Shown here piece after piece: positions 34,334 through 56,253 of a stretch of DNA of 64,000 nucleotides; within the stretch, counting starts at the first letter, position 1; the number at the start of each line of letters is the position of its first letter. The notes below the pieces were generated by a model that saw only the letters and a list, made by a program, of their open reading frames with translations, made no database searches and was not told the DNA's origin. Source of the DNA: Aquabacter sp. L1I39 (GTDB lineage Bacteria > Pseudomonadota > Alphaproteobacteria > Rhizobiales > Xanthobacteraceae). Position numbers and translations under genes: made by a program. The stretch covers positions 2,464,385 through 2,528,384 of the forward strand of contig NZ_CP072392.1 of NCBI RefSeq assembly GCF_017742835.1. Direction: 5' to 3'.

Positions 34334-34555
34334 TCACCGCCATCCGCACAGGCGACGGCCGACCGCATTATGGGCCTTCACGTCGCGGATGGTCTGGTCC
34401 GTGTCCGCAGGGGTCCAACTGATGGGGCGGGCTGCCCGGCAGAACACCTCCGTCCCGCCGCCAGCCGTCATCGGCGCGCAGGCGGACAGGATCAAGAGCA
34501 TCCCGCTCGGCGCCAAGGCGCGCCAGCCGCGCCGCCTCCAGGGCATGTGCCGCAT
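34334..34555 (-). CDS. Rz1-like outer-membrane spanin lipoprotein, embedded in the Rz-like gene
   Basis: This is a small lipoprotein of about 73 residues. The hydrophobic stretch LAPSGMLLILSAC ends in a lipobox (LSAC), followed by a short soluble part with a second cysteine (EVFCRAARPISW), as in phage o-spanins. Its first two-thirds lie inside the Rz-like gene in another frame, the classic embedded Rz/Rz1 arrangement. It follows the GH108 endolysin, consistent with a lysis role in disrupting the outer membrane. An internal ATG at 34546 is an alternative start. Confidence 0.65.
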   Translation of the reverse strand: MRHMPWRRRGWRALAPSGMLLILSACAPMTAGGGTEVFCRAARPISWTPADTDQTIRDVKAHNAVGRRLCGWR

Positions 34556-34769
34556 CGATTTCTTCCTTGCGTTGTCGATCGCGCCATCCGCGCTGTGCAG
34601 CGCGGCGGTCCACGATGAGGAGGAGGCCGGCCAGGCCGGCCATCCCTGCCGCCCGCCAGCCCAGCCGCAGTCCGGCCAGGATGACCGCCCCGCCCACAAG
34701 GCCGGCAATGATCCACCAGGGCAGACCATAGAGGAGCGCCTCGCGCACGCCCTGGGCGAGGCCGGTCAC
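34368..34769 (-). CDS. Rz-like inner-membrane spanin/holin-associated protein
   Basis: This protein of 133 residues starts at a GTG that overlaps the endolysin stop (GTGA). It has hydrophobic helices at about residues 15-55 (WWIIAGLVGGAVILAGL and AAGMAGLAGLLLIV). A charged, helical stretch rich in R, E, K and D (RDRQRKEEIDAAHALEAARLAR, broken here only by length) follows, as in i-spanins. It hosts the Rz1-like frame. The endolysin-Rz-Rz1 order is that of phage lysis cassettes. Exact class (i-spanin versus holin) cannot be settled from sequence alone. Confidence 0.65.
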   Translation of the reverse strand: MTGLAQGVREALLYGLPWWIIAGLVGGAVILAGLRLGWRAAGMAGLAGLLLIVDRRAAQRGWRDRQRKEEIDAAHALEAARLARLGAERDALDPVRLRADDGWRRDGGVLPGSPPHQLDPCGHGPDHPRREGP

Positions 34770-35623
34770 GACGTCGCCCCCGGGAGGCCGAGATCGAGGG
34801 ATCGCTCCTGCCGCCGGCGCGCCCGGCTTCTGTGCCAGGCGAGGGCAAGGCCCGCGCAGGAGGCCAGCAAGCCCGCCACGGTGAGGGCGGTGAAGACGAA
34901 GGCAAGTGTCGGGGAGCCCGAAGCCAGCGGCGCCACCTGCCGGGCGGCCTCGGCGCAGGCGGTGGCAAGCAGGCCGCCGGCGGCGGCCGCCTGTCCTGCT
35001 TCCGGCCGGGGCAGCACGCGCAGGCTGTCGAGGGGCGCCTTCCCGGCTTCCGGCATGGCCCCTCCCGTCGCGCCGCCGAGGGCCACCGGGACGGCCGGCC
35101 CACCCGCTGCCAGAGACCGCGCAGCAATGCGCACATCCGCGACCCGACGGCCCCAGCCGGTGCCGAAAACCGGCCAGGTCTTCAGCGCCCGCAGCATGGC
35201 GAGGCGGCGGTCGCACATGTCGTCGATTACCCGGCGCAGGTCCGGCGTCGCCCGCGCCGCGTCGAGCGTCAGCGCTCCCACCTGGCCGTCCGCCGCCACG
35301 CCGAGGGCACGCTGCAGCCATTTGGCAGCCTGGGCCGGGCCGGAATTCACGGCCGCGTCGAACACGCAGTAATCGAGACCCTGGGGTAGGTCATCGGCCC
35401 GTATCGCATCCCAATATTGCCGCCGGTAGATCAGGTGCAGCTCATCGTCCGCGATGCCCCGGACGGGGCGCGTCGGCTGTCCCGCGGCGCGCCGGAAGGC
35501 ATCATAGACGCGCTGGGTGATGCCGCGCATGGTCGGTCCTCCCGGGTCGGCGGGATGGTTGGAATAGCCGCCCTCATGGGCAAGCACGCGCTCGAGCGCG
35601 GGGGCGAAGCTGGACGCTGCCAC
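34766..35623 (-). CDS. GH108-type endolysin (peptidoglycan hydrolase) with C-terminal membrane segment
   Basis: This protein of 285 residues has the N-terminal GH108 lysozyme domain: catalytic Glu in LAHEGGYSNHPADPGGPTMRGIT, then YWDAIRADDLPQGLDYCVFDAAVNSGP and WLQRALGVAADGQVGALT (a peptidoglycan-binding-like segment). A C-terminal helix (TLAFVFTALTVAGLLASCAGLALAW) suggests membrane tethering. It starts at GTG with a strong AGGAGG 6 nt upstream. It stands at the downstream end of the GTA structural cluster and leads a lysis cassette with the two spanin genes. Confidence 0.88.
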   Translation of the reverse strand: MAASSFAPALERVLAHEGGYSNHPADPGGPTMRGITQRVYDAFRRAAGQPTRPVRGIADDELHLIYRRQYWDAIRADDLPQGLDYCVFDAAVNSGPAQAAKWLQRALGVAADGQVGALTLDAARATPDLRRVIDDMCDRRLAMLRALKTWPVFGTGWGRRVADVRIAARSLAAGGPAVPVALGGATGGAMPEAGKAPLDSLRVLPRPEAGQAAAAGGLLATACAEAARQVAPLASGSPTLAFVFTALTVAGLLASCAGLALAWHRSRARRRQERSLDLGLPGATS

Positions 35624-35733
35624 GCAAACCTCCTAATGTCCGGAAAGTGACGGGCTTTGGCCCGATGGTTCGGCCGATTTGCCGGGGCGCTTGCGCCAGT
35701 ACGGGCGGCCCCAGGCCACGAGAGGCATCTCGG

Positions 35734-35965: not shown

Positions 35966-36187
35966 TTACGCGCCCGCTGGCAGATCCGTTGGGAGAAGGT
36001 TGGCGCGCGGCAGGCTTTCAAGGCGCGGCCAAGCGGCGGCATGCTCTGGGTCCCACAGCACCCGCTCGGGCAGGATGTGGATCTCCCCGTCGGCGAGTGG
36101 CACGGGGGCAAGCCAGGCACCGGGAGAGGTCTCGCCCCGCACCGCATCGGCCTGGGCCGTGGTCAGGATTAAGAACAGGTCGCTCAT
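35966..36187 (-). CDS. Small hypothetical protein in the GTA tail-fibre module
   Basis: This protein of 73 residues starts with ATG overlapping the stop of the upstream gene (ATGA), which supports its reality. It has no signal peptide or membrane segment. Position resembles a small fibre accessory or chaperone after tail-fibre genes, but nothing in the sequence proves that. Confidence 0.65.
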   Translation of the reverse strand: MSDLFLILTTAQADAVRGETSPGAWLAPVPLADGEIHILPERVLWDPEHAAAWPRLESLPRANLLPTDLPAGA

Positions 36188-36981
36188 GGGGCGATGGCTC
36201 CCACCTTGAGAAGATAGGTGCGAAGCGCCGCGTGGAGCGCGGCATGTTGCGCCTCCGTCAGCGAAGCCCCCGCGAACACCACCGCGATCTCCGCATCGGA
36301 CATGGCGGAACCCGCGCCGGCCGCGAACAATCGCAGGATGGTGGAATTGCCCGTGGAGGCGACGGCGGCGCTATGGGTCAGCGCGCCGTTGCGGTACAGG
36401 GCCTTGGTCGCGGCATCCGCGCGGTCGGCCACCATGAGCCCGTCCAGGGCTCCGCCCGAGGGCCAGAATGTGCTGGTTCCGTCGTTGGCGCGATAATGCA
36501 GGTCATTGGAGCCGGATGTCCTGCGCTGCACCCGGCTGTTGCCACCGTAAACGTCCAGCCCCACCGCCGCCGAGGACGGGGTCAGCATCCAGGCGCCGAG
36601 CGTCATGCTGTTCTGCGCGAAGCGGAGCGTCGCGGCGGAAGGGTTGTACCCGGCCGCCTCCAGGTAAGCCGCCGTGCCGTCGCCCTTGAAGCCGCGATGA
36701 GCGGTGAAGAGGGGACTGTTATAGGCCGCCAGATCGTAAGCGGAGCTGATCCAATTGAGCCGCGCCGCCTGGGTGTCATGGGCCGCCAGCACATGCAGCA
36801 GGTCGAGGCGCGACCAGACGCCGGCCGCCACCAAGGCGCGGACGAGGGCATCGATGGCGACGACACGCCCCGCAGGTGGCGCGGCCGTCATCCGCGCCAC
36901 CAAGGCGGTGGTGGCAGGCAGGAGGCCTGCCCTTGGCCGCCAATAGGCGGCGCTCATGAGCCCGGTGCCGAGGCGGATCAT
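36184..36981 (-). CDS. Predicted tail-fibre-type protein (laminin-G-like)
   Basis: This protein of 265 residues has the look of a phage receptor-binding or concanavalin/LamG-like domain: Gly/Ser/Asn-rich beta segments (SNDLHYRANDGTSTFWPSG, YRNGALTHSAAVASTGNST) in the second half. The C-terminal helix-rich SDAEIAVVFAGASLTEAQHAALHAALR is typical of such display proteins. ATG 36981 overlaps the preceding stop. It sits in the distal tail region downstream of the TIM-barrel protein and the DUF2793 gene. Assignment is by pattern and context. Confidence 0.6.
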   Translation of the reverse strand: MIRLGTGLMSAAYWRPRAGLLPATTALVARMTAAPPAGRVVAIDALVRALVAAGVWSRLDLLHVLAAHDTQAARLNWISSAYDLAAYNSPLFTAHRGFKGDGTAAYLEAAGYNPSAATLRFAQNSMTLGAWMLTPSSAAVGLDVYGGNSRVQRRTSGSNDLHYRANDGTSTFWPSGGALDGLMVADRADAATKALYRNGALTHSAAVASTGNSTILRLFAAGAGSAMSDAEIAVVFAGASLTEAQHAALHAALRTYLLKVGAIAP

Positions 36982-37301
36982 CGGTCGGCCAGGGCATAGA
37001 AGAAGAGGCCCGTCGAGGTCCCGGTCGCCCAAATGCGCCGCAACTGCACCGGCGGCAAAGGCTGGAGGCCGGGGGTGGCGCGCACATCCACCGTTTCGGC
37101 ATCGCTGGCGGCGCCCACGGCGGTGACGCGGATGGTGGCGACGCCGCCGGACACATCGCCGGGCACATAGACCCACACGCCCTTGGCATAGGGATCAAGG
37201 TCCGCGCTGTCGGAGGGGCTCACCAGGCGCAGGGTACGGGCCGGCGAGGAGGCGGAGGGGGAAAGCGCACGCAGGGGATCGCGCGCCGCATCATAGGGCA
37301 T
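36978..37301 (-). CDS. Hypothetical protein of the GTA tail-fibre module
   Basis: This protein of 107 residues is acidic and beta-rich by appearance (VWVYVPGDVSGGVATIRVTAVG), ending in IWATGTSTGLFFYALADR. Comparable small spike or fibre-base proteins occur beside DUF2793 genes in alphaproteobacterial prophages. Its end overlaps the following gene by 4 bp, indicating a translationally coupled operon. No firm family can be given. Confidence 0.65.
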   Translation of the reverse strand: MPYDAARDPLRALSPSASSPARTLRLVSPSDSADLDPYAKGVWVYVPGDVSGGVATIRVTAVGAASDAETVDVRATPGLQPLPPVQLRRIWATGTSTGLFFYALADR

Positions 37302-37337: not shown

Positions 37338-38039
37338 TCAGGCCACGGGGGCCGGGCAGGACAGGACATGAATGGCCACCCGCACCGTGCCGCCGGTGAA
37401 GCCGCCGCCATTGGCGGAGAGGCGCACGGGGGTCGCCGCGTAGAAGGCGGTCGGGCCGATGACGCCCATGTTGGAGGCGCCGGCGGAAATCCCCAGCGAT
37501 CCGCCGAACTTGGTCCGCTCGGACGCGGTGCCGCAATCATATGAGGTGGCACCCGTCACGGCGGTGATCGTGCGGGTGGAGACGCCGAGCAGGATGGCCC
37601 GGTCGGGGATCGCCATGGTGGTGGAGACGGTCGAACCCGTCAGCGCCAGGTCCTCCTCCATCACCCGCGCCTCGATGGCGGCGCCATGGGCGCTGGCGGC
37701 GAGCGGCGACACCCAGCGCGCACCATCGAACAGCAGCACGCGGCGCACATCCGCCACATAGGCCAGGAGTCCGGCAGGCAGGTTGAAAAAGTCCCAGGCC
37801 CCCGCCTCATAGGCCGCGATGCGCCCGGCCTGTCCCGCCCAGGCGCCGGTGGCGCCGGAGGGCACCAGCCAGCATTGCCCCTCCCCCGGCGCGCTCGGGG
37901 GCGTCGCCAGCGTCAGACTCTCCAGGCGGGGCTGGATGAGCGCGTCGAGGCGGCGGATGGCGTCATTGTGGGTCACATGCTTCTGCGCCTGCGCCGCCGC
38001 GATATAGGGCAAGGCAAGGCGCGCCGTGGTCTCGGCCAT
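37338..38039 (-). CDS. DUF2793 tail-fibre protein
   Basis: This protein of 233 residues opens with RLALPYIAAAQAQKHVTHNDAIRRLDALIQ, the hallmark of DUF2793. The domain carries GEGQCWLVPSGATGAWAGQAGRIAAYEAGAWDFF. In Rhodobacter capsulatus a DUF2793 protein encoded outside the main cluster forms GTA tail fibres; here it lies directly downstream of the host-specificity gene. The C-terminal half (TSYDCGTASERTKFGGSLGIS) is likely the variable receptor-facing part. Confidence 0.85.
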   Translation of the reverse strand: MAETTARLALPYIAAAQAQKHVTHNDAIRRLDALIQPRLESLTLATPPSAPGEGQCWLVPSGATGAWAGQAGRIAAYEAGAWDFFNLPAGLLAYVADVRRVLLFDGARWVSPLAASAHGAAIEARVMEEDLALTGSTVSTTMAIPDRAILLGVSTRTITAVTGATSYDCGTASERTKFGGSLGISAGASNMGVIGPTAFYAATPVRLSANGGGFTGGTVRVAIHVLSCPAPVA

Positions 38040-38075: not shown

Positions 38076-41000
38076 TCAAACGGTCCGCGTGGCACTGGCG
38101 TGCGCACCCGGCCCCAGCACGGCGGAGACCTGGGCAACGCGGAAGGTGATGGCTGAGAGCGGGCTGCCGAAATCGGCGATCTCACTGGCGGCCGGATAGA
38201 GCCATTCGGGGGTCGAGACCGTCACCGCGCGCCGCACGCTTTCGCCGTCCAATATCTCAAGGCGATAGGCCTCCACCTCCTCGGCGAGTGGCGTGTCGGC
38301 GGCGTCGAAATCCCCGTCCACCCGGCTGCGGCGCACCCAGGCGAGGCGGATCCCCTCCCCCGTGCGGCGCGCGGCGAGATGGACCGGCGAGAGCGGCCGC
38401 AACGCGCGGCCACCGACGGCGCCGGACACCTCGCTCACGTCTTCATCGCCATGGTCGCGATCGGCCCGGCCCACGCGATAGATGAAGCTGCGGCCATAGG
38501 ATGAAGCGCCGGAAGCCAGCACAGCCAGGGTGCGGTCCAGCATCACAATGCGCGTTCCGGCGGGCCATGTGGACCCGCCGGCCGTTTCGGTACCCGCCTG
38601 TCCGCGCAAGAGGCCAGTGAGGGCATAGGTGCGACCTTCCAGCAGCTCGGCGTTGGTGAACTGGATCACCTCGCTCTCCCCCCCCTCGGCCATGAGGGCG
38701 AGGAGGTTGCCGCCCTCCAGCACCTGCGCTTCCAAAAGGCCTTGGAGCAATCCGCCATTCAGCTCCACCAGCAGGCGGGCGGAACGATCGAAGCGCCAGG
38801 CGGGGCCGGGCGGCAGATCCTCCAGCACCTGCCCGAGGATGGCGGGCGCGGAGAGCGCGGCAATGGCCTCGAAGCTCGCTCCATCGGAGGAACGCCAGAC
38901 TGCGAGCGCGCCCGGCCAGGGCGACACGAAGGCGGCCACATGCTGGAGCGGCACGGGATCGGTCGCCTCCAGGAGCGGCAGGTCCAGCAGTTGGAGATCC
39001 GGCGGACCCGACACCGCAGGCAGGCGCACGGTGCCGCCGCCATCGGCGCGGAGCGAGGCCTCGAACAGGTCCGGCTCGATGGAGCGGGCGCTCACCGCGC
39101 GCACTTGCGTGTCCTCGATGCGGGTGATCTCCAGAAGGCGCGTGCGCCCGTCGCAGGTCACTTCCACCACGTCCCCGGTGGCAAGCGCCAGATGGGAGGG
39201 CGGCAAGGAGAAGGTGGCGGTCTCCCGCCCCGCCCACAGATCCTGAAGCCACACATCCGCCGCCCGCCCCATGAGCGCGGCGGAAGCCACCACGGACAAT
39301 TCCGTGCGCGCCACATGGAGGCTCGCGCCGGACAGGCGGCGGGAGGCAACGGTGGCGGTGCGATAGTCGCTGGCGCCATCGATGAAGGTGAGGCCCACCT
39401 CCACCGGCAATTCGCTCTCCTGCGCCCGGGTCAAGGCGAGCGGCGCGGCGCCCTCCTCCACCACCAGATCATCCTGCGTGAGGGAGGCCACCACCGGCCC
39501 ACCGCGCGGCCGGAACGAGAGGGTGCCCTCCTGTTCCACCGCATCGAAGCCGAAGGCGCGGCCGAGCGGCTCGAGCGCGGATCGGGCGGACATGGGCCGG
39601 TCCACCAGATAGCCGTCCACCACACCGGGCAAGCTGCCCGCCTCCACCCCGCCGGCGCCATGGTCGGCGCAGATCTGCGTCACCAGGTCGGACAGCGGCG
39701 CGGTGCCCAGGCGGCCATTCAGCCAATGGCCGGTCTGCCAGTTGACGCCATCCGCCCAGAGATTGGTGGCGAGGGGAAATTCGGGATAGGGCCGCGCGTC
39801 CCAGGTCCACAGGAAGACGCAGCCTTCCTCGACCATGCGCCCACCGCCGGAGCGGGGCGGATTGTCCGCATCCCCGGCGCCGAAATCCGCATCGAAGGTG
39901 GAAAGCACAGCCTCCAGCGCCCGACGCTGGATGAGGTCGTCCCGGCGCCGGTCTGAGAAAGGCGGATAGCCGCCTTCCGACGACTTGGCATCGGGAAAGA
40001 CGCTGGGCCGGTTGCTGCCCTTGTCCACCGCCGGGCAGCCGGCCTCTATGAGGCGGATGGGCTTGCCGTTGGGCACAAAGGCGGTGGGTGATGCGGAGCG
40101 CACGCCGCCGATGCGCTCGTGATGGTCCCTCGACCACCAGGACCAGAGATCCTTTTGCCGGAAGACCCACGGCTCGTCATATGCGGCATCCGCGATGGCC
40201 GTGCGGGCCTGCGCGGCACGGGCGGCCTCGTCCGCATAGAACCAGTCGAACGCCTCGCCGGCCTTGAGATTGGCCTTCAAATAAGCGGGGTCGTGGATGG
40301 ATCGCGCCTGGGCGCGATCAAGATGGGTCGCGCCCGCCCGCCAGTCGGACAGAGGCGGATAATAGTCCAGCCCCACGAAGTCGATGGCAGGGGACGACCA
40401 CAGGCCATCAAGGGGAAAGCGCAGGTCGCCGCCGGGCAGGATCTGGGCGCCATATTCGGTCCAGTCGGCGGCATAGGAGACCTTGGTGCCGGCGCCCAGA
40501 ATGGCCTTCACATCGCCCGCCAGCGCCGCGAAGGCGGCGACCGCCGGAAAGCTGCCATCCTCCGCCCGCACCCGCGTCAGCGCGGCAAATTCCGAGCCGA
40601 TGAGGAAGGCTTCCACGCCCCCCGCCAGCGCCGCCAGATGGGCATAGTGCAGCACCATGCGGCGTAGGCTCCATTCGGCCGGGCCGAAATAATAGACCTG
40701 TCCCGCATAGACGCCGAAATCGGTGCGCGCCGCGCTGCCGAACAGATGGGCCACCTGCGTGCGCGCGCTCGCCGTGCGATCCGCACTGCCCGATCGCCCC
40801 GGCGCGGGATCGCAGGTGATGCGGCCGCGCCAGGGATAAGCGGGCTGGTCGGACGCGCCCGTCCAGGGATCGGGGCGTGCGTTGCCGGCGGGAATGTCCA
40901 TCATCACGAAGGGGTTGAGCGTCACCTTCAGGCCCCGCGCCTTGAGGTCCGCGATGGCGTGCAGCACGGAGCTGTCCGAAGGCGTGCCGCCATAGGCCGC

Positions 41001-41981
41001 CACGCCCGCGTGCCGGCTGGCCGCGCTCGCCAGCAAACGCGGCAGGCCGTTGACCATCCAGGCGGAAGGCCATGTGGCCTTGTCCAGCCGCTCCACCTTG
41101 GGACGCACCGTGCAGGCGCCGGCCCTCAGATCATCGCCGAACCAGGACACCACCAGCGAGACGCGCTCCAGGCTCGGGCACAGGGCCTGGAGATGATCGA
41201 GCGACGCGGCAAAGTCCGAGCGCGCGGTGGCCACATGGCGGTTTTCCGCGTCATAGGCGCCGGGGCCGTAGACGCGCCGCACCTCGCTCGGCTCATAGCC
41301 GAATTCAGTGGAACCGGGGATCAGCGTCACCGCCTTCAGGTGCCGTTCCAGCCGCCCCACGGCGCGCTCCACCTCCACCGTGATCTGCGGCAGACGGTTG
41401 CCGAATTTGGCGAGCGGCATGCGCTCGAACACCAGATAGGCGAGCCCCCGATAGGCCGGCGCCAGGCCCGATCCTTCCTTCGCCTCGATCCAGGGATCGG
41501 GAAGCTGGTCCTCGCTCCCCAGATGGGCGCGGATCACATAGGCGGTGGCGTCCAGCGGCTTGCCGTCCGCCCAGATGCGGCCAATGCGCGTCACCGGGCC
41601 TTCACATAAAGCGACGGCGAAATTGGCGTAGTAGGAATAGGAAATGGTGGTGGTGCGCGTGGAGGTGCGCGCGCTTTTTCCCCCCGTCGACTGCACTTGG
41701 GTGGACACCACCTCTTCGAGCCGCGTGCCCCAGATGACCTGCCCGGCCACCCGCACGCGCCCATAGATGCGCGGGATGGGCGCGCCGGCATTGGAGGTCA
41801 TGACATCGAGGTCGGACAGCCGCGCGCCCTGCACCACCTGGCTGCGCCCGCCGCCGCTCAAGGCCGCATCGGCCACCGCGCCCCCGAGCGCCCCCAGCGC
41901 CCGGCCCGCAATGGCGCCGAGCGGACCGAACAGGGCGCCGCCCACGAGCCCGCCCGCACCGCCGAGAAGCAGCGTCGCCAT
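38076..41981 (-). CDS. GTA host-specificity protein with TIM-barrel domain (RcGTA g15-like)
   Basis: This is the 1301-residue distal tail protein of the particle. A glycine-rich N-terminus (LLGGAGGLVGGALFGPLGAIAGRALG) precedes the baseplate-type domain (APIPRIYGRVRVAGQVIW). The GTA TIM-barrel-like domain spans roughly 430-760 and shows FVGLDYYPPLSDWR, RLIEAGCPAVDKGSNRPSVF and CVFLWTWDARPYPEFP. C-terminal tail-fibre-base domains follow. Length and motif order match RcGTA g15 (the megatron) and related phage tip proteins. It likely contacts the recipient cell surface. It lies 29 bp after the peptidase gene and is full length. Confidence 0.94.
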   Translation of the reverse strand: MATLLLGGAGGLVGGALFGPLGAIAGRALGALGGAVADAALSGGGRSQVVQGARLSDLDVMTSNAGAPIPRIYGRVRVAGQVIWGTRLEEVVSTQVQSTGGKSARTSTRTTTISYSYYANFAVALCEGPVTRIGRIWADGKPLDATAYVIRAHLGSEDQLPDPWIEAKEGSGLAPAYRGLAYLVFERMPLAKFGNRLPQITVEVERAVGRLERHLKAVTLIPGSTEFGYEPSEVRRVYGPGAYDAENRHVATARSDFAASLDHLQALCPSLERVSLVVSWFGDDLRAGACTVRPKVERLDKATWPSAWMVNGLPRLLASAASRHAGVAAYGGTPSDSSVLHAIADLKARGLKVTLNPFVMMDIPAGNARPDPWTGASDQPAYPWRGRITCDPAPGRSGSADRTASARTQVAHLFGSAARTDFGVYAGQVYYFGPAEWSLRRMVLHYAHLAALAGGVEAFLIGSEFAALTRVRAEDGSFPAVAAFAALAGDVKAILGAGTKVSYAADWTEYGAQILPGGDLRFPLDGLWSSPAIDFVGLDYYPPLSDWRAGATHLDRAQARSIHDPAYLKANLKAGEAFDWFYADEAARAAQARTAIADAAYDEPWVFRQKDLWSWWSRDHHERIGGVRSASPTAFVPNGKPIRLIEAGCPAVDKGSNRPSVFPDAKSSEGGYPPFSDRRRDDLIQRRALEAVLSTFDADFGAGDADNPPRSGGGRMVEEGCVFLWTWDARPYPEFPLATNLWADGVNWQTGHWLNGRLGTAPLSDLVTQICADHGAGGVEAGSLPGVVDGYLVDRPMSARSALEPLGRAFGFDAVEQEGTLSFRPRGGPVVASLTQDDLVVEEGAAPLALTRAQESELPVEVGLTFIDGASDYRTATVASRRLSGASLHVARTELSVVASAALMGRAADVWLQDLWAGRETATFSLPPSHLALATGDVVEVTCDGRTRLLEITRIEDTQVRAVSARSIEPDLFEASLRADGGGTVRLPAVSGPPDLQLLDLPLLEATDPVPLQHVAAFVSPWPGALAVWRSSDGASFEAIAALSAPAILGQVLEDLPPGPAWRFDRSARLLVELNGGLLQGLLEAQVLEGGNLLALMAEGGESEVIQFTNAELLEGRTYALTGLLRGQAGTETAGGSTWPAGTRIVMLDRTLAVLASGASSYGRSFIYRVGRADRDHGDEDVSEVSGAVGGRALRPLSPVHLAARRTGEGIRLAWVRRSRVDGDFDAADTPLAEEVEAYRLEILDGESVRRAVTVSTPEWLYPAASEIADFGSPLSAITFRVAQVSAVLGPGAHASATRTV

Positions 41982-46957: not shown

Positions 46958-46971
46958 GGGGCTCTCCACGC

Positions 46972-48105: not shown

Positions 48106-48425
48106 GGCTGTTCCTCCCGGCAGCGGCAGCGGCTGAAACGGCCCCGATTGTCGGGATCGCTCACCGCCTCCACGGCGAAGATGCGCGTGCCCAAAACCAG
48201 CCGGTCGCCGGGCTGGAGGGTGTTGGGCGCCCGCACGGTGATGCGATGGACGAGCACGCCCACCCGCTTCTCGGCGGAGAGATCGCCCTCGGCCGAGAGC
48301 GTCTCCAGCGCGCCCCACAACTGGTCGATGGTCAGATAGGTGCGCGAAATCCCGCCCATGCCATCCGGCAGGTCGACGCCGGTCTGGTGGGAGAAGCGGT
48401 GGCGCAGGGCGCCGGGGGCGGTCAC
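48102..48425 (-). CDS. Phage head-tail joining/head-closure protein (RcGTA g7-like)
   Basis: This protein of 107 residues has the head-closure (SPP1 gp16/HK97) pattern: LRHRFSHQTGVDLPDGMGGISRTYLTIDQLWGALETLS and a C-terminal GTRIFAVEAVSDPDNRGRFSRCRCREE. It closes the connector after DNA packaging. It overlaps the connector gene at its start and the next gene at its end by 4 bp. Confidence 0.92.
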   Translation of the reverse strand: MTAPGALRHRFSHQTGVDLPDGMGGISRTYLTIDQLWGALETLSAEGDLSAEKRVGVLVHRITVRAPNTLQPGDRLVLGTRIFAVEAVSDPDNRGRFSRCRCREEQP

Positions 48426-48982
48426 AGTCGCACCAGGCGATAGGGCCGCAGCAGCGCCTCCACCGGCTCGGGCAGGCGGCCGGCGCCGGTGGCGGCGTCG
48501 CGGTTCTCATAGAGGTGCGCGGTGTGGAGGCGCACGGCCTGGATCAGGTCCGCCGGCACCTCGGCGGGCGTTGCGCCATATCCGAGCGTCAGGTCCAGCT
48601 CGATGCCGCCGAGCGTCCGCGTCGGGCGCGGGGCGCGGACGGGATCGAAGCCGATCAAAGCCGGCGCCCGGTCCCGCCGCAAGGTGAAGAGATCGAGCGG
48701 CAGCGTCGCGAAGGCGGTGCCGCTAAAGACACGGGCGGCGAGCACCGCCCGCACCGGGGCGAGCGGGGCGAGGATGAGGCCGCTCAAAGGCCAGGCATCC
48801 CGCGTCACCCGCCAGGTCTGGGTCATGAGAATGCGCCCGCTGGCGCTCTCGATGGCCTGCCGGGCGGCGGTGATGAGGGCGGCGAGAAGGCTGTCCTCCG
48901 CATCATGGTCGATGCGCAGGAAGGCCTTGGCCTCGGCAAGGGTCAGCGGCTCGGCGGCGGGGCCGGTCAGGCATTCGGGCAC
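48422..48982 (-). CDS. Phage gp6-like head-tail connector (RcGTA g6-like)
   Basis: This adaptor of 186 residues has the N-terminal gp6/phiE125-type block LTLAEAKAFLRIDHDAEDSLLAALITAARQAIESASGR. LGYGATPAEVPADLIQAVRLHTAHLYENRD is also diagnostic. It starts with GTG and GGAGG 5 nt upstream. A trypsin-like protease gene on the other strand sits between it and the capsid gene, with an 84-bp divergent spacer. Confidence 0.91.
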   Translation of the reverse strand: MPECLTGPAAEPLTLAEAKAFLRIDHDAEDSLLAALITAARQAIESASGRILMTQTWRVTRDAWPLSGLILAPLAPVRAVLAARVFSGTAFATLPLDLFTLRRDRAPALIGFDPVRAPRPTRTLGGIELDLTLGYGATPAEVPADLIQAVRLHTAHLYENRDAATGAGRLPEPVEALLRPYRLVRL

Positions 48983-49066
48983 GGAAACCTCCGGGAGGAA
49001 GCCGGACGCACGCAGCCTCCGGCGATGGAATTGACGGCGCGGCGCAGGAGGGCCAGAAAGCGGCCG

Positions 49067-49822
49067 ATGACGCCCCTCTCCTTCCTCCGCGCCCGCGCCC
49101 TTGGCGCTGCGGCCTTCGTTCTCGCGCTCGGCGCGGGTCCCGCATCCGCCATCGTGGGCGGGGGGCCGGCGCCGGCCGAGGTGGCGGCCCGCACGGTGCT
49201 CATCGTCTCGACGCGTGGCGCCTCCTGCACCGGCACGGCGCTGGCGCCGGACCTGGTGCTCACGGCGGCCCATTGCGTGAAGCCGGCGGCGGACTATGCG
49301 GTGGCGCTCCTGGGCGGCGGGGCGCCCCGGCTCATTCCGGTGACCGGCGTGGCGGTGCATCCCTCATTCGCAGACGACCAGTTCCGCACCCGCCGGCCGA
49401 CGCCGGATCTGGCGGTGATCCGCCTCGCCGAACCTCTGCCGGCGAGCATCCGCCCGGCCCGGCTCTCCACCTCCGGCCTGCCGCCCAAGGGGGCGATGTT
49501 CCTGGTGGCCGGCTATGGCATGAGCGCCGACGGAGCGGAAAAGACCGCCGGCACGCTGCGGGCGGTCTCGCTCCCTTCCATCGGCACCACGGGGGGCATC
49601 ATGGCGCGCCTCTCACCCTCCGAAGGGACGGCGGGCGCCTGCACCGGCGACAGCGGCGGCCCCGCCTTCGCGGACGGAACGGTCGCGGGCGTGGTGAGCT
49701 GGGTCACGGCGGCCGGCGGCGCGCGCGGCTGCGGCGGCGTCACCGGCATCACTTTGGTGGGCCTGTTCTCGGACTGGATCCGGTCGGCGGCCGCCAAGCT
49801 CGGGCGGCCGCTGGGGGAGTAG
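49067..49822 (+). CDS. Secreted trypsin-like serine protease (S1 family) inside the GTA cluster
   Basis: This protein of 251 residues has a signal peptide (FLRARALGAAAFVLALGAGPASA) directly followed by IVGG, the mature N-terminus of trypsin-like enzymes. The catalytic triad is visible: His in LTAAHC, Asp in RTRRPTPDLAVIRL and Ser in GACTGDSGGPAF. The expected CxG...C disulfide pairs are present. The start at 49067 begins the signal peptide; AGGAGG lies 15 nt upstream, and an ATG at 49025 would add 14 basic residues. It is transcribed opposite to the flanking capsid and connector genes, so it is probably an insertion. Confidence 0.88.
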   Translation: MTPLSFLRARALGAAAFVLALGAGPASAIVGGGPAPAEVAARTVLIVSTRGASCTGTALAPDLVLTAAHCVKPAADYAVALLGGGAPRLIPVTGVAVHPSFADDQFRTRRPTPDLAVIRLAEPLPASIRPARLSTSGLPPKGAMFLVAGYGMSADGAEKTAGTLRAVSLPSIGTTGGIMARLSPSEGTAGACTGDSGGPAFADGTVAGVVSWVTAAGGARGCGGVTGITLVGLFSDWIRSAAAKLGRPLGE

Positions 49823-50224: not shown

Positions 50225-51484
50225 TCAGCTCGCCGCGAACTTCAGCAGCTTGGCGGCGTCGAAGTCCTGGATGCCGCCGCCCACACGCTTGGTGGTGTAG
50301 AACAGCACATAGGGCTTGGCGGAATAGGGGTCGCGCAGCACCCGCACCCCGGCGCGATCCACCACCAGATAGAACCGCCGGAAATCGCCGAAAGCGATGG
50401 GGAAGGCGCCGTCCGCGATGTCCGGCATCTCCTCGCATTCGGCGATGGGAAAGCCCAGCAGGCTCGCCCCCTGCCCCGCCACGGCCGGCGGGGTCCACAG
50501 ATAGGTGCCGTTCTCGTCCTTCAGCTTGCGCACCGCCGCCTGGGTGCGGCGGTTCATGACGAAGCTGGCATTCTGCCGGTAGCCGCCCTTGAGCGCATAG
50601 ACGAGGTCCACCAGCGCGTCGGAAGCATTGGTGGCGGAAAACGCCCCGGCGGCGCCGGTGGCCACATAGCCCACCTTGTCCCAGGCCCAGGCGCTCTCGG
50701 CGGCCTTGGTATAGGCCAGGAACCCCTTGGGCTTGGCCACCCCGTCGCCGGAGACGAAGGCGGCGCTCTCCTGGTCGGCGAAGGCGATGTCCACCTCCCC
50801 GGCGATCCAGGCCTCCAGGTCCACCGCCGCGTCATCCAGCAGCGGCTGGGTGGCGGCGGGCTGGGCATAGAGCTCCATGGCGGGGAAAGAGAGTTCCGCC
50901 AGCACCGGGCTGTCGGTCTGGGGGCGGGCGGCGGTCTCGGCGGCCCAGCCGGAAGCCGGGCCGGTCTTCATGAACGGCTTCTTGTAGGTGCCGCCGCCAA
51001 TGGTGATGACGGTGGCCAGCCCCCGGATGGGCGAGAGCAAGGACAGGCGCCGGCCGATCTCGTGCTCGGTCTGGGCGGGCACCAGATAGCCGCCATCGGC
51101 GCCCGAGCCCACGGTCATGGCCTTGCCTTCCATGGCCTTGGCTTCCAGCGCCTTGAGGCCGCCCGCCTCGCCATGGCGCACATAGGTCTCGAAGGCGCCC
51201 ACATGGGCATCCGCCGCGAGCGCACGGTTGGGCGCGCCGAGGCCGGGGCGGGCCGCCTTGGTGGCGAGCGCATCGAGCCGCGCCTTCTGCGCGTCGAGGG
51301 CGGCGTCGAGGCGGGCGAGCTTTTCCTCCAGCAGCACGTCGGGCGCGCCGCGCCGCTCGATCTCGGCGAGGCGCTGGTCATTGGCGGCGCGATAAGTGTC
51401 GAAGGCCACCATCAGGTCCTCATGCTCGGAAAAGGCGCCGGGGCTCGTCACCTTGGTCTCGGGGGCGGCGAAGGGATGGGTCAT
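50225..51484 (-). CDS. HK97-fold major capsid protein (RcGTA g5-like)
   Basis: This protein of 419 residues has an N-terminal scaffold-like helical domain (about 1-110, heptad-like LLEEKLARLDAALDAQKARLDAL) that the prohead protease is expected to remove. The HK97-fold capsid follows: GGYLVPAQTEHEIGRRLSLLSPIRGLATV, SGDGVAKPKGFLAY, SFVMNRRTQAAVRKLKDENGTYLW and a C-terminal LRDPYSAKPYVLFYTTKRVGGGI. ATG 51484 has TGAGGA 7 nt upstream; a TTG at 51490 is less likely. Length agrees with GTA capsids. Confidence 0.95.
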   Translation of the reverse strand: MTHPFAAPETKVTSPGAFSEHEDLMVAFDTYRAANDQRLAEIERRGAPDVLLEEKLARLDAALDAQKARLDALATKAARPGLGAPNRALAADAHVGAFETYVRHGEAGGLKALEAKAMEGKAMTVGSGADGGYLVPAQTEHEIGRRLSLLSPIRGLATVITIGGGTYKKPFMKTGPASGWAAETAARPQTDSPVLAELSFPAMELYAQPAATQPLLDDAAVDLEAWIAGEVDIAFADQESAAFVSGDGVAKPKGFLAYTKAAESAWAWDKVGYVATGAAGAFSATNASDALVDLVYALKGGYRQNASFVMNRRTQAAVRKLKDENGTYLWTPPAVAGQGASLLGFPIAECEEMPDIADGAFPIAFGDFRRFYLVVDRAGVRVLRDPYSAKPYVLFYTTKRVGGGIQDFDAAKLLKFAAS

Positions 51485-51493
51485 GGACAATCC

Positions 51494-52012
51494 TCAGGGT
51501 TGAAGGCGAACCGCCCCGGCGGGACGGGAGGCAGGAAAGGCAGCCGGCATCGCCAGGGCGAAGCGGGCCTGGGGCTGCATGGGGAAGGTCACGACGGAGA
51601 CTTCCCACAGATCGATGCGGGCGATGCGGCGCACGCGGCTGCGCGGATCGGTGCGGGCGGCGGCCGCCTTGAAGCCGATGGACAGGCCATCGAGCGCGCC
51701 GACGCGGGCAAGGTTCATCACCTCCCGCCCGCGCCGCACATCAAGGGCGAGGCGGCCGCGCACGAAAAGGCCGTGCTCGTCCTCCGCGATGTCGGTCCAC
51801 ACGCCGATGGGCTCGGCCGGATCGTGCTGGTAGAGCAGCCGCACGCCGGCCGCGCCCCGCGTTTCTAGGGAGCGGGCGAAGGCGCCGGGGGCGATGCTGT
51901 CGCGGCCGAGATCCACCCGGTCGAACAGGCAGGCATAGCCCTCGATCCAGCCCTCCGCATCCGCCTCCACCGCCCGCCGAACGGGCGGGCGCAAGGTGCG
52001 GGCAAAGCTCAT
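51494..52012 (-). CDS. HK97 family prohead protease (RcGTA g4-like)
   Basis: This peptidase of 172 residues has the U35 pattern: EGYACLFDRVDLGRDSIAPGAFARSL, catalytic His in RLLYQHDPAEPIG, Ser in LDGLSIGFKAAAA and the DLWEVSVVTFPMQPQARF end. It matures the capsid by cutting its N-terminal domain. ATG 52012 overlaps the preceding small gene (ATGA), and the capsid start lies 10 bp beyond its stop. Confidence 0.93.
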   Translation of the reverse strand: MSFARTLRPPVRRAVEADAEGWIEGYACLFDRVDLGRDSIAPGAFARSLETRGAAGVRLLYQHDPAEPIGVWTDIAEDEHGLFVRGRLALDVRRGREVMNLARVGALDGLSIGFKAAAARTDPRSRVRRIARIDLWEVSVVTFPMQPQARFALAMPAAFPASRPAGAVRLQP

Positions 52013-52197
52013 GCGGGGTCCTTTCCGCCCGCGCCGGGCTTGCGGCGCTTGCCGCGCTCCAGGCGCTCCAGAGTGGCGACGAAGTCGCGGAACACACCGC
52101 CCGGCGCCGGTGCCGGGGCTGGCGCCTGGGCGCGGCGAAGGGTGGGCCCGAGCGCGCGAATGCGCGGCGCGGGCGCCTTCTGGAAGGGGACACGCAT
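52009..52197 (-). CDS. Small GTA-cluster protein before the protease gene
   Basis: This basic protein of 62 residues has an Ala/Pro-rich middle (RRAQAPAPAPAPGG) and a helix FRDFVATLERLERGKRRK. It overlaps the protease start by 4 bp. Its position, after portal and before protease, is that of RcGTA g3.5 or a similar accessory head gene. No family can be claimed from sequence alone. Confidence 0.6.
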   Translation of the reverse strand: MRVPFQKAPAPRIRALGPTLRRAQAPAPAPAPGGVFRDFVATLERLERGKRRKPGAGGKDPA

Positions 52198-52264: not shown

Positions 52265-52471
52265 TCACCCGTCATTGCGGGCGTTGAAGCGGGCCAGCTC
52301 CCGCACGAAGGCATCAAGCCGCTCGGTGGCGCGGGAAAGGGCGGCAAGCGCACGCACCGCCACCAAAGTGGCGCTGCCGGCCCATAAGAGAAGCGCGAGA
52401 TGGGCGAGATCGCCCCGCTCGGCGAAGGCGCGCAGAAGGGCGTCCATGGGCAGGCCCGCCGCCGGATTCAT
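52265..52471 (-). CDS. Small one-helix GTA-cluster protein (RcGTA g3.5 position)
   Basis: This protein of 68 residues has one hydrophobic helix (LAHLALLLWAGSATLVAVRAL) followed by an amphipathic stretch (SRATERLDAFVRELARFN). It starts at an ATG overlapping the portal stop (ATGA). Small proteins at this position occur in other GTA clusters (g3.5, rcc01685-type head-formation family); homology is inferred from position. Confidence 0.65.
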   Translation of the reverse strand: MNPAAGLPMDALLRAFAERGDLAHLALLLWAGSATLVAVRALAALSRATERLDAFVRELARFNARNDG

Positions 52472-53640
52472 GGATGCGGCCCATAGCCCACGGCGGCGCG
52501 CTTCTCGTCCTCGGTGAGGAAGGCGGCGGCGCCCACCCGCGCCCAGAGGTCCGCGCGCTCGGCGGAGAGCGCCTCAACCTGGTCGAGGTCCGGCACGAGA
52601 GTCAGATCCCCGCCATAGGCCGGCGCCAGCCAGGCGGACAAGGCCGCGCCGATGCGCCGGACCATGGGCAGCACGGTGAGCCGCCACAAGGCGCGGTTGG
52701 CCTCGGCATAATTGGCGAAGGTGTTGTCGCCGGGCAGGCCCAGCAGCATGGGCGGCACGCCCACGGCGAGCGCGATCTCGCGCGCCGCATTGGCGCGGGC
52801 GGCCTCGAAATCCATGTCCTTGGGGCTGAGGCCCAAAGGCTTCCAGTCGAGCCCGCCTTCCAGCAGCAGCGGCCGGCCGGCATTGGCGGCGCCCTGGAAG
52901 CTCGCCTCCAATTCCTCCTTGAGGCGCTGGAACTGGTCCTCGCTCAAGGTGCCCGCCCCGCCATAGACGAGGGCGCCGGAGGGCCGGGCGGCATTGTCGA
53001 TGAGCGCCTTGTTCCAGGCGGCCGAGGCATTGTGCAGGTCCAGCGCGCGGGCGGCGGCCTCCAGCGGGGGAAAGCCGTAATGATCGTCCAGCGGGTTGAA
53101 GGCGGCGATGTGGAGGATGGGCAAGGCGGTGCCCCCCTGCGTCTCCATCCCCTCCTGGGCAATGCGCAAGGTGCGCCCATCCAGCACATAGTCGAAGGCT
53201 TCCGGCCAGCCATCGGGGCCGGGCACCACCTTCACCCGGTCGGGCCGCAGGATGTGGATCTCGCGGGGCGCGCCGTCCACGCAGACGAGCTCCAGATAGG
53301 CATTGCCGGCCACCAGGAGATGCCCGCACACCGCCTCCACCAGGTCCGGCCCGCGCAGGCGGGGATTGGGATTGGCGAGGAGCGCCAGGAGCGGATGGCG
53401 GTCCAGCTCGCGCCCCTCTTCCATCAGCACGAACGGCACCGAGCCCGCCGCCTCGGCGACGAGGCGCACGGCGCGGTGGGCGATGGCATTGCGGGCATAG
53501 CCCTCGCGGGCAAGGCCGGCATAGTCGCAAGGCGACCAGCGCGCCTGGCCGTGGCCGAACAGGGCGACAAGCGCGGCGGTCCGGCTCGCCTTCACCTGGG
53601 GCGGACGGGGCCGGAAGGGCGCGAGAAGGGTGCGGAACAT
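52468..53640 (-). CDS. GTA portal protein (RcGTA g3-like, HK97 portal family)
   Basis: This protein of 390 residues is a portal of the HK97 family: CDYAGLAREGYARNAIAHRAVRLVAEAAGSVPFVL, HPLLALLANPNPRLRGPDLVEAVCGHLLVAGNAYLE and the C-terminal region with GVPPMLLGLPGDNTFANYAEANRALWRLTVLPM. It forms the dodecameric DNA entry ring that binds the terminase and connector. ATG 53640 is preferred over an upstream Pro-rich extension. The 822 bp upstream to terL are filled by tandem repeats. Confidence 0.94.
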   Translation of the reverse strand: MFRTLLAPFRPRPPQVKASRTAALVALFGHGQARWSPCDYAGLAREGYARNAIAHRAVRLVAEAAGSVPFVLMEEGRELDRHPLLALLANPNPRLRGPDLVEAVCGHLLVAGNAYLELVCVDGAPREIHILRPDRVKVVPGPDGWPEAFDYVLDGRTLRIAQEGMETQGGTALPILHIAAFNPLDDHYGFPPLEAAARALDLHNASAAWNKALIDNAARPSGALVYGGAGTLSEDQFQRLKEELEASFQGAANAGRPLLLEGGLDWKPLGLSPKDMDFEAARANAAREIALAVGVPPMLLGLPGDNTFANYAEANRALWRLTVLPMVRRIGAALSAWLAPAYGGDLTLVPDLDQVEALSAERADLWARVGAAAFLTEDEKRAAVGYGPHP

Positions 53641-54461
53641 GGCGGTCTCCGAAGGGGGCGGGCGATGCGGCAAAGCGGGCGCGCCCGGCGGCGGCGGTGT
53701 CGGATGTGGTTTCACCCCTTTGTCCCTTCGCCTCCCGCCCCCTCCCCGGCCCTCCCCCGCTAGCGGGAGAGGGAGGGTGGCCGGCCAGCGGCGAGGGTCA
53801 GCAAAGCATGGCGGGCGGCATAAGGCGGCGGAGCCGGCGGACGGTCCTCCTCCCCCCGCGCGACCTGCCCCCTCTCACGCCAAGCGGGGGAGGGTTGGGG
53901 AGGGGTTACAGGGGCCAGATCAGCGCCCCGGGAACGCATGGGCGCCGGGACACGGCGAGAAAAGCACAAGCCGACCGCTGGCCGCGCCGGCCCCCTCCCC
54001 GGCCCTCCCCCGCAAGCGGGAGAGGGAGGGGGACCGGCCAGCGGCGAGGGACAGCAGAACCGGCGGCCGGCATGGGGCGGCGGAACTGGGCGCACCGCCC
54101 TCCGCCCCGCGCGCCCCGCCCCCTCTCCCGCAAAGCGGGGGAGGGTTGGGGAGGGGGCAAACGGGCCAGATCAACGCCACGGCAACGCACGGGCGCCGGG
54201 ACACGGCGAGAAAAGGACCAGCCGACCGCTGGCCCCAGCGGCCCCCCTCCCCGGCCCTCCCCCGCAAGCGGGAGAGGGAGGGGGGCCGGCCAACGGCGAG
54301 GGACAGGAGAGAATGGCCGACGGCGTGGGGCGGCGGAGTAGAGGGGACGGTATCGACCCCGCGCGACCTGCCCCCTCCCCCGCAAGCGGGAGAGGGAGGC
54401 CCGGCCGGCCAGCGGACCCATGGCCGAACGGACAAGCGGACCGGCGGCCTTCCAGCGCCCC
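53641..54461. repeat. Tandem repeat array (unit about 252 bp) between terminase and portal genes
   Basis: Nearly identical segments begin with CCTCCCCGGCCCTCCCCCGC-type motifs at 53741, 53994 and 54246, giving spacings of 253 and 252 bp. Shared landmarks follow in each: a GCAAGCGGGAGAGGGAGGG hairpin, GGCCAGCGGCGAGGG, a CGCGCGACCTGCC or CGCGCGCCC-type block, then GGGCCAGATCA and GACACGGCGAGAAAA. The third copy is truncated near 54375. Long open frames on both strands here are by-products of the repeat. Confidence 0.8.
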
Positions 54462-55742
54462 TCACAGCCCCCGCACGCGGGGCGCGGGGGGGCGGGGGCC
54501 GAGGGCGAGGGCGGTGACGGCCCAGACGAGGGCGTCGAGCCGGTCCGGCGAGCGGCCGTTGGAGAGGCCCTCGGGGGCGAAGTCGCACAATTCGTCTTCG
54601 AGCGCGGGAAAGGCGCCCGCATGGCGCACACGGCCCTGCTCGTAGAGGGCGGCCACCGGCTCGGCGCGCAGATATTTGCCGCGCGTGGCGCGCACTGGCT
54701 CCACCGGGACGGCGCCATCCACCTCGGCGATGACGGCGCGCACCATCTCGCCGCCCTGGTTCACCTCCACCACGATGCGATCGGCGCAAAAGCGCTGATA
54801 GAGCGCGACCGCGCGGCTCGCCCATTGCACCGGCGTGAGGCCGGCGGCGCTGTCATCGGCCAGCACATGGACGATGCCCTCCCGGTCGATGCCGGCGCAG
54901 ACGAGGCCGCAGGCATCGGCCCCGGCACGGGAGGAAGCGGGCGGGTCCACCGCCACCACCACCCGCACCAAGGGCGGCGGGGCGGCCTCGCGGGCGGCTT
55001 CCAGGCGCGCGCGGGTCCACAGGGCGTCGGGCCGGTCCTCCAGGATTTCGCCGTCCAGTTCCTGCCGGCCGAGGCGCGTGCCGCCATAGCGGGTGAGCAC
55101 GGCGGCGAGAAAACCGGGCGCCAGAAGCCGGGCATTGTCCGCCGTGCGGGCGCGGCTCACCGCCGTGGTGGGATCGGTCAGGAGGCGCTTGACCAGGGGG
55201 GTGGGGCGCGGCGTGGTGGTGATCATCTGGCGCGGCTGGTCGCCCAGGCGCAGGCCGAATTGCAGCATGTCGAAGGTGGCGTCCGCCCGGCGCCACTTGG
55301 CCAGCTCGTCCAGCCAGGCGGCCTGAAATTGCGGGCCGCGCAGGCTTTCCGGGTCTTCCGCTGAAAAACCCTGCGCCACCGCGCCATTGGGCCAGACGAG
55401 GCGGCGGCGGGCGGCTTCCCAGCGGGGGCGCTCGTGATTGGGATGGATGGCGAGGAGGCCGGAGACGCCGTCCACCATCACCTCGCGCACATCGGCCATG
55501 GTCTCGGCCACCAGGGCGATGCGCGCGACCGGCGCGGTGGCAAACGGCGGTCGGCCGAAGGCGAGGCCCCGTACCCATTCGGCGCCCGCCCGCGTCTTCC
55601 CGGCGCCCCGGCCGCCCAGCACCAGCCAAGTGGTCCAGGGCGCGCCGCCCTGGGCGAGAGAGGGCGGAAGCTGATCGGGCCGGGCCCACAATTCCCACTC
55701 ATACAGCAAGGCGGCCATGGCGGGATCGGCCAGCAGCGCCAT
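54462..55742 (-). CDS. GTA large terminase subunit (RcGTA g2-like)
   Basis: This packaging ATPase-nuclease of 426 residues has Walker A VLGGRGAGKTRAGAEW (P-loop at about 43-50), Walker B AAWLDELAKW (D145-E146), the coupling motif TTTPRP and a C-terminal RNase H-type nuclease with Asp in VVVAVDPPAS and a late SPDRLDALVWAV. The N-terminus YEWELWARPDQLPPSL is diagnostic for the GTA/headful class. The ATG at 55742 lies 7 nt after the g1-like stop. The subunit cuts and pumps host DNA into the capsid. Confidence 0.95.
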   Translation of the reverse strand: MALLADPAMAALLYEWELWARPDQLPPSLAQGGAPWTTWLVLGGRGAGKTRAGAEWVRGLAFGRPPFATAPVARIALVAETMADVREVMVDGVSGLLAIHPNHERPRWEAARRRLVWPNGAVAQGFSAEDPESLRGPQFQAAWLDELAKWRRADATFDMLQFGLRLGDQPRQMITTTPRPTPLVKRLLTDPTTAVSRARTADNARLLAPGFLAAVLTRYGGTRLGRQELDGEILEDRPDALWTRARLEAAREAAPPPLVRVVVAVDPPASSRAGADACGLVCAGIDREGIVHVLADDSAAGLTPVQWASRAVALYQRFCADRIVVEVNQGGEMVRAVIAEVDGAVPVEPVRATRGKYLRAEPVAALYEQGRVRHAGAFPALEDELCDFAPEGLSNGRSPDRLDALVWAVTALALGPRPPAPRVRGL

Positions 55743-55749
55743 CAGTTCG

Positions 55750-56253
55750 TCAGGTGTTTTCTCCTTCGCGCAGCGCCTCAAGGCGGCGCGCAAGCTCGCG
55801 GCGGAAGGTGTCGAGGTCGAAGGCAATGGCATCCTCCCGGTTTTCCGCATCCACCGGCCGGCGGGGGCCGGAGGCGGCCTCCAGCGCCTTCAACTCCCGC
55901 AGCACCCGCGCCAGAACCGCCAGCGTGCGGGCATCGCGCTCCGCGTCGGCGGCGAGGCCATCGGTGCGGGCGAGGCGGGCCTCGATCTCGTCCACCTGCA
56001 TCTCGGCGGCGCGCCACAGGCGCTCCACCAAGGCGCGGCGGCGGGCGGGCAGGAGCAGCGAGGCGCGGCGGCTGGTGCGCCGGCGCGGCAGCGGGGCCTT
56101 GATGGCGATGCCGTCCGGGCCGGGGGCATGGTCGATCCAGTAATAGGTGCGCCCGGTGGACAGGCCCGTGCGGGCCACGATCTCATGGATGGGCACGCCG
56201 TCCTGGTAGAGGGCGCGCACGGTCGCCGCGACGCCGGGGGACGGTTCGCTCAT
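55750..56253 (-). CDS. GTA small terminase-type protein (RcGTA g1-like)
   Basis: This protein of 167 residues is the first gene of the cluster. It has an N-terminal helix-turn-helix (VRALYQDGVPIHEIVARTGLSTGRTYYWID) and a long helical region (LWRAAEMQVDEIEARLA, TLAVLARVLRELKALE), as in small terminases and RcGTA g1. It probably recognises or licenses DNA for packaging. ATG 56253 is set by family N-terminus; the frame extends to 56307. It has a helical, charged C-terminus (RRELARRLEALREGEN). Confidence 0.85.
   Translation of the reverse strand: MSEPSPGVAATVRALYQDGVPIHEIVARTGLSTGRTYYWIDHAPGPDGIAIKAPLPRRRTSRRASLLLPARRRALVERLWRAAEMQVDEIEARLARTDGLAADAERDARTLAVLARVLRELKALEAASGPRRPVDAENREDAIAFDLDTFRRELARRLEALREGENT

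Follow-up and report, generated by a model that had tools for sequence, protein, structure and literature searches.

Gene transfer agent (GTA) clusters of the type described in Rhodobacter capsulatus (RcGTA) are already well known and common in Hyphomicrobiales (PMC9662315; PMC9638019), and the mechanistic GTA papers considered here rest on Rhodobacter and Caulobacter. The RcGTA genes are distributed over five loci (PMC11409702), and DUF2793 has been named as a GTA tail fibre (PMC10883770). In Caulobacter crescentus (CcGTA), the regulator GafZ needs a palindrome between the -10 and -35 elements of the GTA promoter and anti-terminates past three 150-bp repeats that follow the gene of the large terminase, TerL (PMC11150451), and the RogA motif has been reported as GGAA-N4-TTCC (PMC9632790). 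In Hyphomicrobiales, gafA is split, with occasional loci that lack the DnaA-like gene (PMC9638019), and extra genes within some GTA clusters have been noted in general terms (PMC9765227). Here we analyze a 64-kb window, i.e., the whole stretch of DNA under study (C1:2464385-2528384, on a single contig of 5,388,224 bases), from Aquabacter sp. L1I39, a genus placed in Xanthobacteraceae, Hyphomicrobiales. An RcGTA-type cluster spans window positions 34334-56253 on the minus strand, from the start of g1 (56253) to the end of an Rz1-like open reading frame (ORF; 34334). We estimate the probability that this cluster is an intact, vertically inherited RcGTA-type GTA at about 0.88; as such, it is an ordinary additional member of the group. 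Its RcGTA-type identity is supported by gene order, PDB matches, the TerL tree, conserved neighbors, low ratios of nonsynonymous to synonymous substitution rates (dN/dS), a GafZ gene and a candidate GafZ-type promoter.

Gene content and organization of the cluster

Gene calls together with Pfam, PHROGs and NCBIfam scans of the window yield the canonical g1-g15 order and confirm both the structural gene list, from TerL to the TIM-barrel protein, and the outer coordinates given in the original prediction. The first gene, g1 (55750..56253), has no Pfam match above the cut-off and only a weak helix-turn-helix (HTH) PHROG match, and is named the small terminase because of its place and the g1 homologs at the equivalent place in relatives, not on a family match. 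It is followed by g2, TerL (54462..55850; Terminase_6N/6C); g3, the portal (52468..53640; Phage_portal; PDB 6te8_A, E 1.5e-126, and 6tba_1A, Rcc01684, E 1.7e-126); g3.5 (52265..52471; homologs at the corresponding place in relatives); a small ORF in the g3.5-g4 interval that is conserved in Aquabacter, Azorhizobium and Xanthobacter loci at 48-98% identity (52009..52197); g4, the prohead protease (51494..52012; Peptidase_S78); and g5, the major capsid protein of the HK97 type (50225..51484, start codon predicted; Phage_capsid; best PDB match Rcc01687). The neck and tail genes comprise g6, the head-tail adaptor (48422..48988, start predicted; Phage_connect_1; PDB match Rcc01688); g7, the head completion protein or stopper (48102..48425; Phage_HCP); an HK97 gp10-like connector with a weak PHROG match (47824..48105; E 0.0011); g8, the DUF3168-type tail terminator (47402..47827; Tail_completion_gp17; best PDB match Rcc01690); g9, the tail tube (46972..47379, start predicted; Phage_tail_2; best PDB match Rcc01691); g10, GTA-gp10 (46601..46975; Phage_TAC_11); g10.1, a tail assembly chaperone of the rcc01693 family (46404..46604; Phage_TAC_6); and g11, the tape measure (45736..46422; PHROG tape measure). 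The baseplate genes are g12, the distal tail protein (43366..44004; DUF2460; TIGR02217, the Rcc01695 family, with Rcc01695 as the best PDB match); g13, the baseplate hub (42445..43335; DUF2163/BR0599; TIGR02218; best PDB match 6tba_7A); g14, an NlpC/P60 peptidase (42011..42448; TIGR02219); and g15, the TIM-barrel megatron (38076..41981; GTA_TIM), which matches 6tba_8A over its full length (1043 bits).

Downstream of g15, the minus strand encodes the DUF2793 tail fibre (37338..38039; Pfam and PHROG scans), three small fibre-region genes, a GH108 endolysin (34766..35623; Glyco_hydro_108 and PHROG endolysin) with a C-terminal hydrophobic stretch read from the sequence, and an Rz1-like spanin ORF (34334..34729; PHROG Rz-like spanin, E 4e-11). 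An Rz-like ORF, identified only by reading the sequence, overlaps this spanin ORF in a different frame. The fibre-region genes are d1, which is tail-fibre-like (36978..37301; PHROG tail fiber, E 1e-6), d2 (36184..36981; matches to PHROGs of unknown function) and d3, a small partner that overlaps d2 by 4 bp (35966..36187). Next come, on the same strand, the conserved host genes of a response regulator (33515-34207) and a histidine kinase (32076-33479), both recognized by Pfam and jointly denoted RR/HK below.

No cluster gene contains an internal stop, and the predicted integrity of capsid, portal and terminase is borne out. The claim that the cluster lies on one strand holds for g1-g15 and the fibre and lysis genes but not for three plus-strand genes located inside it; likewise, the 4-bp coupled overlaps do exist but, with the starts chosen here, at 10 of 23 junctions, so that attributing them to most genes was too strong. 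Of nine GTA proteins compared with solved structures, eight (capsid, portal, g6, g8, g9, g12, g13 and g15) have their RcGTA counterpart as the best PDB match, and g7 had no PDB match. The cluster shares with RcGTA the head-tail order, the DUF2793 fibre family and endolysin-type lysis, and a working particle is a plausible prediction. It differs from RcGTA in having the fibre and lysis genes attached to the cluster, in its three embedded reversed genes, and in a GafZ that stands alone whereas RcGTA has a fused GafA.

Phylogeny, conserved neighbors and selection

The 20 relatives used throughout were hand-picked from 80 loci and are mostly the closest ones; the closest named relative by portal among the 80 is Aquabacter sp. 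P-9 (97%). Eight phages for the trees were picked from phage database matches. In the TerL tree, all 73 GTA-type sequences, with that of the window among them, form one group without the seven phage TerLs (support 0.948), the Holosporaceae sequence L080 being set aside and the GenBank 'phage' records L162 and L163 being counted as GTA. This is the outcome expected under the GTA reading of the original prediction, which gene order, structure matches and conserved neighbors support as well. The two 'bacteriophage' records (L162, MW462191.1; L163, MW091529.1) are the nearest 'phage' matches by TerL and capsid and look like pieces of bacterial chromosomes carrying GTA clusters. The cluster of L162 is followed by a regulator annotated as PhoP, and that of L163 by a response regulator and a kinase, Pfam-checked, that are annotated as antibiotic efflux proteins.

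In all 20 relatives, g12-g15 are followed by the RR/HK pair; 19 of them have DUF2793, and 13 have a match to GH108. Relative to P-9, dN/dS is 0.05-0.19 for g1-g15, except for the gp10-like ORF (0.38), and 0.15, 0.39 and 0.17 for DUF2793, d2 and the embedded S1 protease described below, respectively; the g11 stretch compared in P-9 has one stop, possibly outside the true frame. Horizontal exchange of the GTA with P-9, considered given that the synonymous rate (dS) of the cluster is lower than that of RR/HK, was rejected because the surrounding chromosome is equally variable (69-95% identity). Insertions of ~2.8-6.1 kb occur between the portal gene and g3.5 or the GTA's own protease gene in four Xanthobacter and Rhizobium-group loci (L008, L019, L044 and L046).

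A candidate GafZ-type promoter upstream of g1

The region upstream of g1 (56325..56353, minus strand) contains the sequence TTGACAGCGGTGCGCTCCTCCGCTAGGGT, a predicted promoter in which the -35 element TTGACA overlaps the palindrome CAGCGnnnCGCT and is separated by a 17-nt spacer from the -10 element TAGGGT. Its core, TTGACAGCGNNNCGCT, has a single exact match in the genome. The same core is found unchanged in 17 of the 20 relatives, all 17 of which have it upstream of the GTA, with five extra copies versus six for a reversed control pattern. With a weight matrix built from 16 of these sites, 38 of 75 loci score higher than 17 in the region before TerL. Of these 38, 22 contributed nothing to the training set (one of the 22 has the same sequence as a training site); Stappia, Kaistia, Rhizobium and Hoeflea are represented among them. 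On 219 control pieces, the 95% point of the matrix is 7.4 and the maximum is 43.1; the genuine promoter of locus L014 has this very score, and we take the two to be the same site. Over 40 distinct matrix-chosen sites, the palindrome arms are complementary in 0.81 of the cells at the true center versus 0.09-0.20 when the center is slid, and one pair is G-C in 25 sites, has the opposite order (C-G) in five and is mismatched in ten. Directly upstream of the promoter, most of 34 sites carry GGA-N6-TCC (imperfect in this genome), which resembles the RogA motif mentioned above.

By the likeness of its place to the Caulobacter element, we infer that the g1 promoter is a candidate GafZ-binding site. 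The locus resembles CcGTA (PMC11150451; PMC9632790) in the presence of a GafZ homolog, the palindrome between -35 and -10, a single GafZ-type site, and GC-rich direct repeats between TerL and portal. It differs in the palindrome sequence, in the consensus -35 TTGACA (versus AATCAT in CcGTA), in that GafY is undetected, and in the phage-type endolysin and spanins, as opposed to the LypABC reported for Caulobacter (PMC13236601), for which no search was made here.

The repeats that occupy the TerL-portal gap are three in number, as in Caulobacter, spaced by ~252 bp and furnished with palindromes (53738..54399); they are terGTA-like by place. A general terGTA feature was rejected, the long repeats being clear, among the Xanthobacteraceae gaps examined, only in this genome and P-9. 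REP-type palindromes form arrays at 53750-54400 and 63146-63600 of the window and also occur at 50026.

A perfect palindrome just upstream of the promoter, ATTCCTAGGAAT, was considered as an operator and discarded: among the upstream regions scanned, the perfect form is limited to this genome and P-9, and a single match of this kind in the window is close to the chance expectation. In two loci (L027:502-1195 and L032:383-411), a g1-type promoter (TTTACAGCGTGAYGCTG...) is present a second time, ~7 kb upstream of the one that precedes the GTA; the gene directly behind this second copy in L027 encodes an HTH protein whose sequence resembles an additional g1.

The regulators GafZ and GafY

The search of the genome for GafA-type regulators suggested with the original prediction found GafZ but not GafY. 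A DUF6456 (GafZ) gene scores above the cut-off in every one of the 21 genomes; one of them contains a further, weak match. In this genome, it lies 2.6 Mb from the cluster and adjoins the MucR gene, as in the split gafA loci of Hyphomicrobiales (PMC9638019); also in accord with that organization, the DnaA-like GafY is encoded directly upstream of gafZ in 16 of the 21 loci. The present genome, in contrast, represents the type without the DnaA-like gene, an occasional exception in that study; a locus without GafY is not new as such because loci of this kind are reported there. When a GafY alignment was run against nine whole genomes, GafY was found in four, and only DnaA-sized best matches in this genome, P-9 and three others. 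The PF08299 profile, which recognizes a Xanthobacter GafY (E 1.5e-13), found only DnaA in this genome. Given that P-9 lacks a detectable GafY as well and that the GTA genes are under selection, activation likely proceeds without GafY or through a diverged one, to judge from the sequences. The gafZ-mucR interval, where other genomes have gafY, contains a 93-residue ORF divergent from gafZ (L164:6047-6328) that has a P-9 match (86% over 70 residues) and belongs to no Pfam family.

Reversed genes embedded in the cluster

Three plus-strand genes reside within the cluster: an S1 (trypsin-like) protease in the 1236-bp gap between g5 and g6 (49067..49822; Trypsin, E 1e-25), and, in the 1731-bp gap between g11 and g12, a short porin-like protein (45290..45718; Porin_2, E 5e-7 over 52 residues) and an H1-like Lys/Ala/Pro-rich protein (44112..45044; 40% A, 23% K, no Pfam family). 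We recognized no description of these genes, or of a common Hyphomicrobiales promoter, in the literature covered, subscription papers being largely beyond its scope. The S1 protease has the His, Asp and Ser motifs TAAHC, DLAVI and GDSGGP and a signal-like N-terminus, and thus looks secreted. Its homology to LypA or LypC was considered and rejected, the trypsin domain being the only one that the protein shows and the link to LypABC being an analogy only.

Of the 80 loci, 17 carry the S1 protease gene, always in the g5-g6 gap and on the strand opposite to the cluster; Azorhizobium, Xanthobacter, Ancylobacter, Chelatococcus and Bosea are represented among them. The remaining loci have no match or end before this place. 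A survey of 297 genomes of the order, in which all counts are lower bounds (cut-offs E 1e-20 for S1 and E 1e-90 for the capsid), identified the protease in at least 36 genomes and a GTA-like capsid in at least 194; at least 21 of the 36 have both. In the 16 loci with coordinates, S1 and capsid are always on opposite strands and, in 15, no more than 5 kb apart (7.8 kb in the other). Six of the 15 S1 genomes without a capsid match were examined. In four of these (L197-L200), S1 is located 0.6-2.5 kb from the RR/HK pair, in the same orientation to it as in the window, and no GTA gene was found at E 1e-3 in the 19.5-kb stretch around S1; likely, these loci are scars of cluster deletion. The other two have no close RR/HK copy near S1, one of them with weak matches only (25-37%). 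All 12 Aquabacter, Azorhizobium and Xanthobacter genomes, but none of eight others, have an H1-like ORF in reverse orientation ahead of g12, and a similar porin-like ORF occupies the equivalent place in several of these genomes, with P-9, Azorhizobium and Xanthobacter loci among them.

Proposed expression mechanism and alternatives

Under the model that we propose, GafZ would, in some cells, be loaded onto RNA polymerase at the palindromic g1 promoter, and the GafZ-loaded polymerase would read through terminators and reversed genes, yielding the products of the head, neck/tail, baseplate, fibre and lysis genes. TerL would then package host DNA into the particle, which would be released by the GH108 endolysin and spanins and attach via the DUF2793/d1-d3 fibre set. 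The S1, porin-like and H1-like genes would be host genes with their own promoters that have settled in the cluster. Tentatively, this can be extended to the Hyphomicrobiales GTAs at large, which might share one dedicated palindromic GafZ-loading promoter, with a processive anti-termination that would allow the cluster to tolerate conserved host genes in reverse; the consensus -35 might have made GafY dispensable in this lineage, and the reversed protease might outlast a deleted GTA. With a promoter element recognizable by sequence in many Hyphomicrobiales, the generality of GafZ-type anti-termination would become directly testable, as would the question of which genomes may still be able to make particles. 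The reversed genes raise the question of how a long operon can be expressed when genes inside it are transcribed in the opposite direction.

Several observations weigh against an intact GTA controlled in this manner. Keeping the Holosporaceae TerL L080 in the tree puts four phages inside the TerL group, and the capsid tree, another comparison called for by the original prediction, does not separate GTAs from phages (72 of 73 on the phage-free side, support 0.22). Relative to A. cavernae, dN/dS of the cluster genes is higher (0.09-0.57), still below 1. For the promoter core, there are nine one-mismatch sites elsewhere in the genome compared to three for a control pattern, although the full promoter matrix gives all nine of them scores of 11 or less; the matrix itself was trained on 16 of the sites that it later found; and 37 of the 75 loci, including Rhodovulum and most of the Hyphomonadaceae loci, lack a site. 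Among the Xanthobacteraceae gaps examined, clear long repeats are seen only here and in P-9, with weaker ones in a few others, and the REP palindrome of these repeats recurs at 63.1-63.6 kb of the window. Furthermore, GafY, which is needed in Caulobacter, was undetected in this genome and is not upstream of gafZ here, in P-9 or in three others of the 21 loci. Finally, g6 and g12 each start head-to-head with a reversed gene, so that separate promoters are possible.

The last point underlies the strongest alternative, namely that the cluster consists of three transcription units (g1-g5, g6-g11 and g12 to the lysis genes), each with its own promoter, instead of one anti-terminated transcript. The starts of g6 and S1 (48988/49067) and of g12 and the H1-like gene (44004/44112) are indeed arranged head-to-head, ~80-110 bp apart. 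The g1 promoter matrix, however, has no second above-threshold site in the window, and an additional GafZ-type site ahead of g6 or g12 was rejected on the same ground. A consensus scan found no promoter at 43-57 kb either, a weak argument given that it missed the g1 promoter too. We regard three separate units as possible but doubtful. Less probable still, and in our view unlikely, is that the cluster no longer works, having lost GafY and taken in unrelated genes, and is heading to deletion: the failure to find GafY here and in P-9, and the four of six examined genomes that apparently lost the cluster but retain S1 beside RR/HK, point in this direction, but all genes are intact, dN/dS has been low since the split from P-9, itself without detectable GafY, and the promoter and GafZ are retained. 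That the cluster is an ordinary temperate prophage, or what is left of one, with no more than a likeness to GTAs is highly improbable, for even though every cluster gene is phage-type, d2 is shared with a resident prophage-like region and a lysis cassette is attached, the window has no integrase, 20 of 20 relatives have the same neighbors, TerL groups with GTAs apart from phages, and the capsids of the two other portal/capsid regions of this genome are distant.

Prophage-like regions and the fibre genes

The original prediction that an RcGTA-type GTA would come with no integrase agrees with a genome-wide PF00589 scan, in which none of the eight matches falls in the window, the nearest being ~60 kb past its end. 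The genome has two further portal/capsid regions, at 3.12 and 4.57 Mb, which lie apart from the cluster and look like prophages; their capsids have 36-37% identity to that of the cluster. The 4.57-Mb region has an integrase ~5.4 kb from the portal gene, and the 3.12-Mb region only a sub-threshold match ~20 kb away.

The fibre-region protein d2 is 60% identical (317 bits) to the product of a gene in the 3.12-Mb region, compared to 64% (306 bits) for the GTA copy of P-9 and 43% for that of A. cavernae; d3 is 55% identical to the prophage copy. The neighbors of d2 are 91-95% identical to their P-9 counterparts on one flank (DUF2793 and d1) and 73-79% on the opposite flank (d3 and endolysin). The simplest reading of these sequences is that d2 may have been exchanged between the GTA and a prophage, in either direction, which suggests how the host range of a GTA could change. 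In Ancylobacter moscoviensis (the genome of locus L020), a second g15-like set of matches is located away from the GTA (G013:C5:480880-485358) and perhaps belongs to a GTA-related prophage.

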